Of a stretch of 64,000 nucleotides of DNA, positions 2,755 through 5,539 are shown one piece after another. The notes beneath the pieces were generated by a model. That model had not been told where the DNA came from, made no database searches, and worked only from the letters and a program-made list of their open reading frames with translations. Origin of the DNA: Streptomyces hundungensis (lineage in GTDB: Bacteria > Actinomycetota > Actinomycetes > Streptomycetales > Streptomycetaceae); contig NZ_CP032698.1 in the NCBI RefSeq assembly GCF_003627815.1, positions 4,650,001-4,714,000 on the forward strand. The letters are read 5' to 3'. Made by a program: the position numbers and the translations under genes. Within the stretch, counting starts at the first letter, position 1; each line of letters starts with the position of its first letter.

Positions 2755-3651
2755 TCACCCGGCGTCGGCAGCCCGTGAACTACCGCGAAAAACCTGGCAG
2801 GTGTGCCAGGAACGGTGGGCCGCCGCGATGGGGTGGATACCGGGCTGAGGCCCGAGGAGCGGACGCCCCGCGAGCGCGGTTACCTGCGCGCGAGCGGCCT
2901 GACTGCGGCCGACGAAGCGCTGGGAGACCAGGATGCGGTGGCCGTCCCCTACACCCAGTACGCCCTTGTCGAAGAGCTTGTGGTGCAGCGAACACAGGCA
3001 CAGGCCGTTGTCGACGTCGTCGGGCCCGTCGAAGGCCCACCAGCGCACGTGCGCGGCCTCCAGCCCGACGGACGAGGTGTCGATCATGCCGTCGTAACCG
3101 CAGAAGGCACACCGGTACTCATAGGCGACCAGCACCAACTCCCGCATGCGCCGGTCCCGTTGGCGCCGCCCGGACACGGCCGGCCCTCCGGCCTCCACGG
3201 CTTCCAACTCCAGACCGACGGCGTCGCACAGGTCCTGGTGCAGTGAGGAGGGAAAGTTCAGATCGAGCAGCACCCGCGCCATGCGGCCCAACAGCGAAGG
3301 CTCCCGCCGGAGCGCGGCCCGGAGTTCCGGCGCCAGCCGCCCGGCGGCCCGCCCGGCCCGCAGCTCCCGCACCCCGGTGCCGGGGCTGCCGACCCCGCGC
3401 TCGGTCCGCACTTCCCACACCCCGTCGCTGACCAGATGATGGAAGGGATAGGCGGGCGTGGTCGCCCGAGGCGGCCCGTACTCCACGAGCAGCCGCCGCA
3501 GATCCCCCTCCACCACGCTGTACACCAACTCGGCCCCGGCATCGGCCTGATACCGCCCCAGCGCGTACAACATCAACAACGGCTTGTGCGGCGCCCGCGC
3601 CCCACCCCGACTCCACTGCCTCAACGTCGCAACCCGCCCGAGCCAGTCCAT
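2755..3651 (-). CDS. Phosphorothioate-DNA-binding HNH restriction endonuclease (ScoMcrA-like)
   Basis: Predicted type IV (modification-dependent) restriction enzyme of 298 residues. The N-terminus (MDWLGRVATLRQWS, RAPHKPLLMLYALGRYQ, PAYPFHHL) matches the sulfur-binding domain that recognises phosphorothioated DNA, as I know it from the ScoMcrA/SprMcrA family. The C-terminal half carries an HNH nuclease: CAFCGYDG, then LEAAHVRWW, DNGLCLCSLHHKLFDKG, with paired cysteines for zinc and the metal-binding histidines intact. The start is the ATG at 3651, where the family consensus begins; the upstream extension is discarded. No dnd sulfur-modification genes are visible nearby, consistent with a host that cuts incoming sulfur-modified DNA rather than making it. 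Confidence 0.85.
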   Translation of the reverse strand: MDWLGRVATLRQWSRGGARAPHKPLLMLYALGRYQADAGAELVYSVVEGDLRRLLVEYGPPRATTPAYPFHHLVSDGVWEVRTERGVGSPGTGVRELRAGRAAGRLAPELRAALRREPSLLGRMARVLLDLNFPSSLHQDLCDAVGLELEAVEAGGPAVSGRRQRDRRMRELVLVAYEYRCAFCGYDGMIDTSSVGLEAAHVRWWAFDGPDDVDNGLCLCSLHHKLFDKGVLGVGDGHRILVSQRFVGRSQAARAQVTALAGRPLLGPQPGIHPIAAAHRSWHTCQVFRGSSRAADAG

Positions 3652-3747
3652 GCCGCGGATCGTAGTAAACCCCGCCCGCCTACCTGTCTGGCCCCCCGGC
3701 CCTGGTACTGCCCGAGGGGCGGGCCTCACGCCGTCCGTCAGCTTGCC

Positions 3748-4068
3748 TCAATCGTCGTACCCGTCGTACCCGTCGTAGTAGTCGTCTTCCTCGTCGAAGT
3801 CGCAACCGTTCCTCGCGGCCTTGGCTCCGTCTAGGAGGCCGTGGGCGTAAGCCGCCGCGTTCGCCATACGCGCGGAGTTGTTTGTGGCGACGAGGGTGAC
3901 GACGACTGTGCCCACAACGGTGACAGCAAACCCGCCGGCTGCTACCGCAATCTGCTTCCAGGAGGGTCCAGACCTGACCGGACCGGCTTTGGCTTCAGTA
4001 ACCTCGCAAGCTACTGAACTGGAAGGCTCGGGCGCCTTCTCTTCACCGTTCTCGGAGACCTTGCTCAT
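3748..4068 (-). CDS. Small single-pass membrane protein with acidic Tyr/Asp tail
   Basis: Unrecognised 106-residue protein. A polar N-terminus (MSKVSENGEEK) is followed by one hydrophobic segment of about 20 residues (IAVAAGGFAVTVVGTVVVTL, residues about 40-60) and a C-terminus ending in the acidic DEEDDYYDGYDGYDD. ATG at 4068 is preceded by GGAAGG at a good distance; a start 11 codons further up has no such site. It sits between the restriction gene and the integrase relic, so it may be cargo of the old element (inference). The repeated GTCGTACCC at 3756-3775 encodes the DGY repeats. Confidence 0.6.
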   Translation of the reverse strand: MSKVSENGEEKAPEPSSSVACEVTEAKAGPVRSGPSWKQIAVAAGGFAVTVVGTVVVTLVATNNSARMANAAAYAHGLLDGAKAARNGCDFDEEDDYYDGYDGYDD

Positions 4069-4461
4069 CAGGCTGCACCTTCCAACTGCCCGGGCAGCCA
4101 AGCCAAACGGCTGCTTCCCGCTCGCTCACTGCCGCATTCTGTGTCATTCGGCCCGTGGGACACCACCTGGTTCGGTCAAGTCGATCCAGTACCCCACCAG
4201 ACACCAGGGCAGAATTTGCCCTTATACGGGGAGGGTTGACATTCCCAGGACTCCAGCGACCTCCCGGCCTCCGCCGTAGCCTGTCCAACCACACTCCAGC
4301 TTCCGGCTCATCGCAGAAGGCCCGGGACAGTCCGACTTCGCTGCAAGACCGCTTGCTCCCGAAGTGACTTGGGTGGGGGTGGTGGCTTGGGCAGCGTTAT
4401 CTATCACCCGCGCTGATGGTGCGCTGACGTTCGTGTTGGTTCGCCGTTGTTCGTCGGCGTT
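4069..4461. other. Gap without a recognisable gene
   Basis: Nearly 400 bases with no convincing gene. Only short frames without ribosome sites or family resemblance are present. Base composition is more even and AT-richer than in the flanking genes. I read it as decayed material belonging to the same degraded element as the integrase relic. The non-coding relic stretch continues to about 4868. Confidence 0.5.
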
Positions 4462-4482
4462 GTCACGCAGTTAGACACTCAC
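4462..4482 (+). repeat. 21-bp arm-site-like direct repeat, copy 1
   Basis: GTCACGCAGTTAGACACTCAC. It differs at two positions from the copy at 5388-5408, and the two copies flank the integrase relic. I recall a 17-bp arm-type site GTCACGCAG(A/T)TAGACAC for the integrase of pSAM2, which integrates in tRNA-Pro. Both copies here fit that pattern exactly over those 17 bases. Confidence 0.7.
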
Positions 4483-4868
4483 CGCAGGACCGTCACCGAG
4501 CTGTCGGTGACTCCGAGATCTGGCACGCATACTCCTCGACGATCTGCGGCACAACGCTTTGGGCGTCCTCGGCTTGCAGAGTTGCAACGTCCGCCATCGA
4601 TCCAGGCAGAGCCCGAGCAGACACGGCCTATTGCGCCCAGGTCGTTCGTAGTAAACGAGCAACCGCCACAGGATGGGAGCCCACCAGGCTCGCTACGTTC
4701 GGCCGGCACTCGGCACCGGCGCCCCCTCCATCCCGGAGTCGGCCGATCCCCCGCCGGAGGCATGCCCTTGGCCCTGGCGCACCGTGCGGTGTCGCCTCAT
4801 GGCCCCGGGCCCATTCCGCATGCGGGAGGGCGTCGGCGCAACGCGCGCGCGGAGCAGGCCGGAGGCAG

Positions 4869-5388
4869 GAGCATCGCGCGGAGCGGAGCCGGGAGCTTGA
4901 GTACGGGTTCAATGGCAGGGACCCATCGACGGTGAAGACGATCAAGATCCTCTGCGACACCCATGTCATTCCGGCTCTGGGCGCCCGTAAGCTCCGGGAT
5001 CTCAGCGTCGACGACGTGGACAAGTGGCTCGCGGGCAAGTGGAAGGTGCTCAGCCCCCGCTCGCTGGAAGCTGTCCGTTCCTGTCTGAACCGTGCGATCA
5101 AGCAGGCCATGGCGCGGGACAAGGTGAAGCGGAATGTCGTAGAGCTGTACTCCGTCCCTGCCGAGCGCCCTGGTCGGCCGTCCAAGTCCCTCACACTCGA
5201 GCAGGCCGACTCGGTTCTCGTGGCTGCCGAGGATTCACCCGTCGCTCGAAGAGATCTCGCGACTGGTCGGTCACTCCAGTACGGCTGTCACTGAAGAGGT
5301 CTACCGGAAGCCGATCCGCCCGGTGATCCAGACCGGGGCCACTGCGATGGACAGCATCTTCGGCACGCCCCCGCCTCCGAAGCGGTAG
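4869..5388 (+). pseudogene. Internally deleted tyrosine-recombinase integrase (pSAM2-type relic)
   Basis: The first part, in the frame of position 4932, encodes a core-binding (SAM-like) domain with DPSTVKTIKILCDTHVIPAL, RKLRDLSVDDVDKWLAG and the linker up to LTLEQADSVLVAAEDS. At about 5230-5245 the reading shifts frame, and the second part (ending at the TAG at 5386-5388) encodes the C-terminal end LEEISRLVGHSSTAVTEEVY followed by RKPIRP and MDSIFG. The last catalytic His and the nucleophilic Tyr are present, but the segment with the first catalytic Arg, the Lys and the H-x-x-R box is missing, so about 150-200 residues were lost. The gene cannot make an active recombinase. The true original start upstream of 4869 is not identifiable. 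Confidence 0.85.
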
Positions 5389-5408
5389 TCACGCAGATAG
5401 ACACGCAC
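5388..5408 (+). repeat. 21-bp arm-site-like direct repeat, copy 2
   Basis: GTCACGCAGATAGACACGCAC. It starts on the last base of the integrase relic's stop codon and lies 57 bases from the 3' end of tRNA-Pro. It has the same 17-base pattern as the copy at 4462. The position between int and the tRNA 3' end is where an integrase arm-binding site of a tRNA-integrating element is expected. Confidence 0.7.
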
Positions 5409-5413
5409 AACGA

Positions 5414-5451
5414 ATCAGGGCCACCGACTCACGTGAGTCGGTGGCCCTGAT
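5414..5451 (-). terminator. 38-bp perfect palindrome, terminator of tRNA-Pro
   Basis: A perfect 19-bp inverted repeat (atcagggccaccgactcac and its reverse complement) with no loop bases beyond the centre. It lies 15 bases downstream of the tRNA-Pro 3' end on the minus strand, where a factor-independent terminator is expected. Being symmetric, it could also stop transcription from the integrase relic side. Confidence 0.75.
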
Positions 5452-5465
5452 CTGCTACTTAGCTG

Positions 5466-5539
5466 TCGGGGTGGCGGGATTTGAACCCACGACCTCTTCG
5501 TCCCGAACGAAGCGCGCTGCCAAGCTGCGCTACACCCCG
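5466..5539 (-). tRNA. tRNA-Pro (anticodon CGG)
   Basis: 74 nt on the minus strand, beginning CGGGGTGTAGCGCAGCTTGG and ending CCACCCCGA without an encoded CCA. The acceptor stem pairs CGGGGTG with CACCCCG. The anticodon stem-loop is CTTCG-TTCGGGA-CGAAG, giving anticodon CGG. The T loop reads GGTTCAAATCC. Its 3' end faces the integrase relic, and tRNA-Pro is the known attachment gene of pSAM2, so the tRNA doubles as the likely attachment site. Confidence 0.97.

Follow-up and report, generated by a model that had tools for sequence, protein, structure and literature searches.

The Streptomyces ambofaciens element pSAM2 integrates in tRNA-Pro, and its integrase binds two 17-bp arm repeats. Defective elements and accretion at tRNA genes are known from the CIMEs of ICESt1, and lambda-type integrases use secondary, core-like attachment sites off their normal target, with the crossover in the overlap. 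For pACPL, a 13.6-kb element of Actinoplanes sp. SE50/110 that was inferred to exist as circles too, the accessible text of PMC3364876 prints arms of the form analysed here and calls them highly similar to those of pSAM2. Decay, tandem accretion, and the presence of several element types at one tRNA are described in the accessible text of PMC9513070.

The window, a stretch of 64,000 nucleotides from Streptomyces hundungensis, contains an integrase relic, both arms, and tRNA-Pro(CGG), and is recognizable from these as the site of a collapsed pSAM2-like element. The likeness to pSAM2 lies in tRNA-Pro and in the two 17-bp arms; the claim of the first-pass annotation that these have the form of the pSAM2 arms has indirect support only, by way of the pACPL arms (PMC3364876, accessible text). 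Unlike pSAM2, the element in the window has a broken integrase, a far end that is no copy of the tRNA, and no replication or transfer genes that could be found. Unlike pACPL, it is a relic of about 1.2 kb, in which the two attachment ends, scraps of the interior, and pieces of int are left. Its far end resembles the secondary sites of lambda-type integrases in the use of a core-like sequence, but only fossil junctions are seen here, one of them common to two element types. The defective elements of PMC9513070 are alike in decay and accretion, whereas identical direct repeats are described there (accessible text) and a pseudo-core junction is found here. No description of pseudo-core element ends was found in the literature searched, a search that most subscription journals lay beyond. 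The relic itself is ordinary, and the junction is the interesting part. We regard it as probable that a pSAM2-like element at tRNA-Pro(CGG) was gutted by deletions, had its far end joined to a pseudo-core, and is now probably locked in.

Arm repeats, integrase relic, and tRNA-Pro(CGG)

The two arm-type sites were GTCACGCAGTTAGACAC at 4462-4478 (distal, T variant) and GTCACGCAGATAGACAC at 5388-5404 (integrase-side, A variant), both exact matches on the plus strand, with starts 926 bp apart and fitting the pattern GTCACGCAG[AT]TAGACAC. In the genome of 8,393,044 bases, GTCACGCAGWTAGACAC was matched exactly at these two arms only, and the next-best place carried 2 mismatches. When as many as 3 mismatches were allowed, the window had 2 arm matches; shuffles gave 0.10 on average, and 1 of 100 reached 2. 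The arms formed part of a 24-nt direct repeat (88%). Repeats of 21 bp had been described earlier; their 17-bp core was exact, but the full 21-mers around the arms differed at 2 of 21 positions, so that "repeat" here means the 17-bp core. In literature text the 9-mer of the arm occurs in 128 papers, and neither arm 17-mer was found in the best-ranked of these.

Both arms, the relic, and the tRNA could be located, and the exact arm-type repeats do lie on either side of a disrupted tyrosine-integrase gene next to tRNA-Pro(CGG), as first described. The N-terminal and central part of the integrase lies at 4895-5239 and the C-terminal end, including the tyrosine region as placed by alignment, at 5243-5388, both on the plus strand. 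Between the two pieces about 460 bp from the middle of int are missing and the reading frame changes, and the stop codon of the relic overlaps the integrase-side arm. With Pfam, the first piece gave a weak match that stayed under the cut-offs and the second gave none, while DNA and protein comparison of the pieces with intact integrase genes was clear, with about 69-87% DNA identity. The amino acid identity to the integrase of locus L164 was 80.9% and 91.5%. In the integrase tree (82 rows), the relic grouped with L164 (S. griseus NCTC13033) at support of 100/98 and then with L152 and L149, on a long branch and with fragments that fill 42% of the columns. A tRNA-Pro(CGG) was called at L164 and L149; at L152 none was called, and a core that differs at 2 positions is located 77 bp past the arm (tree labels for loci without a called tRNA default to ProCGG). 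The nearest relative is an intact integrase beside tRNA-Pro(CGG).

Between the arms, beyond int, only two scraps (63 and 227 bp) had matches longer than 50 bp to the elements that were fetched. The larger, at 4668-4894 on the plus strand, matched the interiors of related elements at 75-79%, and the smaller, at 4588-4650 (79-90%), was inverted relative to it in comparison with L077.

The tRNA-Pro(CGG) gene is intact at 5465-5539 on the minus strand, with the element-borne half at 5465-5500 and the motif TCCCGAA at 5501-5507. Its 3' end begins 77 bp past the start of the integrase-side arm, in relatives mostly 76-81 bp. With as many as 3 mismatches allowed, the tRNA-Pro(CGG) core was matched once in the genome. 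In the gap between integrase and tRNA, a perfect 19+19 palindrome at 5414-5451 (fold z -8.4) is likely a bidirectional terminator, and the element-borne tRNA half and the palindrome are probably still in use.

The far end and its junction

The distal attachment half, which consists of half-core, 98-bp spacer, and arm, lies at 4346-4481 on the plus strand and scored 97.5 bits with a profile built from 34 such ends in other genomes, the loci of its own genome being left out. Its spacing agreed exactly with the profile, and its identity to the consensus was 0.77, where the others ranged from 0.77 to 0.91 and none of the 34 was lower. From the core start to the distal arm the distance is 141 bp, and 141-142 bp in the tRNA-type far ends of relatives. 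In the register that the copy of the tRNA 3' end occupies in intact elements, the window has the non-tRNA half-core GACCGCTTGC and the crossover motif TCCCGAA (4347-4363, plus strand), and its outer 23 bases differ from the tRNA 3' half at 14 positions. A second tRNA 3' end at the left, for which the first-pass annotation had proposed to look, is thus not supported; a non-tRNA half-site that genome G130 shares stands in its place.

The flank left of the far end (3683-4363, plus strand) is homologous to G130 (C175) over 681 bases at 79.8%, and contains a minus-strand reading frame (3748-4101; 117 aa) of unknown function. This similarity runs up to TCCCGAA and ends there. A second genome, G040, aligned with G130 across the TCCCGAA point (76% over 182 bp) and with the window over 59 bp, up to TCCCGAA, its inclusion resting on this flank alignment. 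Past the motif, G130 and G040 continue as a type-2 half with arm-like repeats of its own and the window as a type-1 half; the downstream part of G130 and G040 has GTTTGGCCCC-type repeats and resembled other type-2 halves better than 200 of 200 shuffles. The shared left half-site thus bears an end of type 1 in the window and of type 2 in both G130 and G040, and the match of the flank to G130 up to TCCCGAA argues that the far end either arose at a non-tRNA pseudo-core or was exchanged with one. Given the homology to G130 and the 14 mismatches in the outer 23 bases, the claim made here is that of a relic derived from a pSAM2-like element, as against a complete member of that group. The sequence AAGACCGCTTGCTCCCGAA was exact in 2 of 295 genomes (the own genome and G130) and had one mismatch in G040; at up to 2 mismatches it occurred in 12 of 295 genomes, places that are no evidence because a reversed control matched more genomes. 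In G130, the pseudo-site and tRNA-Pro are on different contigs. G130 was considered as an empty pseudo-core and rejected, as a type-2 half sits there; a truly empty pseudo-core was not found, G130 and G040 both carrying the type-2 half (one empty-site search took the wrong side of the locus).

From the alignments, the far end had first been read as an ordinary duplicated tRNA 3' end, point-mutated after the death of the element. In the right register 25 of 46 bases match the tRNA copy (21 mismatches), and 3 of 34 other far ends are intermediate (4, 8, and 9 of the outer 23 bases mismatched), as such a history would have it. The other modules are bimodal, however, and not graded. Of the 34, 10 equal the tRNA 3' half and 21 have 12-21 mismatches. 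The 14 mismatches of the window fall inside the 681-base stretch common to G130, and in G130 this stretch is no tRNA copy either. The flank match overturned this first reading; a decayed tRNA copy is largely contradicted and highly improbable.

Further out, an HNH gene lies at 2755-3729 on the minus strand (PF13391, E 2.2e-12). It stands beside an element in the window, G259, and G106, the DNA similarity to the latter two stopping at 3665-3666, and it is present in other genomes as well. PADLOC matches at 906-2558 were set aside, as they look like general kinase similarity. Locus L104 was rejected as sharing the outer flank: shuffles matched it in 161, 660, and 266 of 1000 cases in comparison with the window, G130, and G040, respectively, and it has half-core letters in common only.

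Distal modules and excision

Among 71 distal modules (own included), 18 were tRNA-type, 6 intermediate, and 47 non-tRNA; because the collection partly targeted orphans and some modules belong to a common flank family, the figure of 47 of 71 should not be taken as a frequency, and the cases tested are not independent. In the 68 modules with a half-core (own included), 0-3 tRNA letters were found left of GACC in 49, all 26 in 14, and numbers between in 5. The half-core was lost in three further modules (L071, L023, and L024). The 10 bases left of the crossover were perfect in 17 of 18 tRNA-type and 23 of 46 non-tRNA modules (own excluded; Fisher p 0.001), while the first 10 bases of the element-borne side, at up to 1 mismatch, did not differ between module types (p 0.77, own included). 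One element end, with 92-97% identity over 400-700 bp, was bordered by a tRNA-type flank in G062 and, in G226, by two distinct flanks that are not tRNA-type. One flank family was common to five ends for which no likeness between the interiors was found. In one outer-flank family, the genomes that lack the module at that place also lack the half-core, a finding at odds with a simple conserved pseudo-core.

These data bear on the alternative that an illegitimate deletion, with no integrase involved, removed the outer tRNA half and stopped at the core by chance. The other deletions of the relic look illegitimate, the half-core itself is gone in the three modules named, and the family just described has no half-core where the module is absent, three points in favour of such a process. 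A chance end point is nevertheless hard to reconcile with a change at the same place in 49 of 68 modules, with a half-core left of the crossover that varies as a separate site would, and with a left half that G130 and G040 share with another element type. We consider deletion by chance unlikely.

The joining of flanks at TCCCGAA was carried out in silico for 16 elements at tRNA-Pro(CGG), hand-picked from the loci with both ends at hand, and restored the tRNA in 11 of 16. No tRNA resulted in the other 5, namely the window, L071, L080, L104, and L220; L071 has lost the core itself, which fits plain deletion, and the module of L220 has no arm. For a CIME, excision restores the target, and the joined flanks of the window give no tRNA in silico. 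As one tRNA-Pro(CGG) was found in the genome, excision would probably leave the cell with no tRNA of this kind, and the relic is probably locked in place.

Under the preferred reading, a type-1 pSAM2-like actinomycete integrative and conjugative element would have integrated in tRNA-Pro(CGG), and deletions, judged from intact relatives, would then have removed replication, transfer, and the middle of int. The integrase-side end would still supply the tRNA 3' half, whose sequence is in place, and the likely terminator. At TCCCGAA the far end is joined to a pseudo-core that lies outside the tRNA, and the most likely cause is integrase-mediated recombination between this end and a core-like site of an adjacent element. 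In one possible order, integration in the tRNA came first, followed by accretion beside another element and crossover of the far end with the core-like site of this neighbour; in the other, integration at the pseudo-core preceded the joining to the tRNA, and the same structure would result. In both, excision by an integrase supplied in trans would leave a cut tRNA behind, and the relic would for this reason probably be locked in. Such a junction points to a simple way in which mobility is lost and attachment sites are kept, with one wrong far-end crossover making excision costly.

More broadly, the integrases that serve several types of element at tRNA-Pro(CGG) may repeatedly recombine one end with pseudo-cores, often in neighbours, so that element ends move and elements at the tRNA become captives because their excision would destroy it; the window would be a captive in late decay. 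This wider reading is tentative, and we give it somewhat less than an even chance. Pseudo-core joining would explain dispersed element ends that have an arm and no type-1 integrase, and such ends would escape finders based on integrase genes. Four suspected orphan ends (L170, L171, L173, and L174) have a copy of a Gly or Arg tRNA 3' end with 0-2 mismatches in 40, and since this copy is on the opposite side of the end from its tRNA, the ends lie inside another element. The tRNA 3' copy was poor in L169 (10 mismatches) and none was present in L185. Pfam detected an integrase at L170, L173, and L174; the candidate frames at L169 and L185 gave no such match.

The same tRNA-Pro(CGG) core was seen to take at least three kinds of distal half, with GCAACTTGGG (type 1), CGCGATC and GTTTGGCCCC-type repeats (type 2), or TGAGGTTCG (type 3), observed at L079, L225, L284, L310, and L319 and at L092, L121, L194, L222, and L224.

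Related elements in the genus

The exact arm was found in 98 of 295 sampled genomes of the genus (own included), and the reversed pattern in 1 of 295. Intact elements follow the plan of far core, 141-142 bp, arm (mostly T), cargo, int, arm (mostly A), and tRNA-Pro(CGG). At 80 integrase loci, the tRNA near the arm was tRNA-Pro(CGG) in 59, another tRNA (Val, Arg, Ile, Thr, Pro-GGG, or Pro-TGG) in 9, and none called in 12. With the tRNA-Pro(CGG) gene at L164 and at these 59 loci, the assignment of the relic, both arms, and tRNA-Pro to a collapsed pSAM2-like element in the first-pass annotation is upheld. The arm form, as judged across these loci, outlives changes of target. Six loci (L070, L155, L160, L163, L150, and L153) have integrases of the same family and arms with 0-2 mismatches near tRNA-Arg, Ile, Thr, or Val, a pattern readable as target change with conserved arms.

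The A-variant arm was present at 34 places, one of which (L029) is a distal-type end. At the other 33, integrase-side sites, a full-length integrase beside the arm (385 or more of 389 residues in the alignment, no stop; limit E 1e-60) was found at 11 and not at 22, which indicates that decayed elements are common at such sites. The idea that conserved arms point to function was dropped, as the sites had been chosen for exact arms and 22 of 33 are without a full-length integrase. Four loci at tRNA-Pro(CGG) (L072, L073, L076, and L230) span about 2-8 kb with both ends recognizable and only the C-terminal part of int; their far core is tRNA-type with 0-4 mismatches, and they are possible non-autonomous elements.

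The relic in the window could likewise be a working non-autonomous, cis-mobilizable element whose two ends are kept for related integrases acting in trans. Both arms and TCCCGAA are intact, L072, L073, and L076 keep both ends without a full-length integrase, and cis-mobilization of defective elements is discussed in the accessible text of PMC9513070. Yet excision would leave no tRNA in silico, and the distal module of the window is the lowest in identity to the consensus of the 34 others; a mobilizable relic is improbable, and we retain the reading of a gutted element joined to a pseudo-core.

The phage search with the integrase gave no match of at least 60% identity, and 74 of 77 plasmid records with an integrase match were below 60%. 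A near-perfect palindrome follows most tRNA-Pro(CGG) genes, with letters that vary by element. The stem score was at least 12 in 88 of 113 distinct stretches left of tRNA-Pro(CGG), with 81 different stem starts, and at most 5 in shuffles. These palindromes look like element-borne bidirectional terminators.
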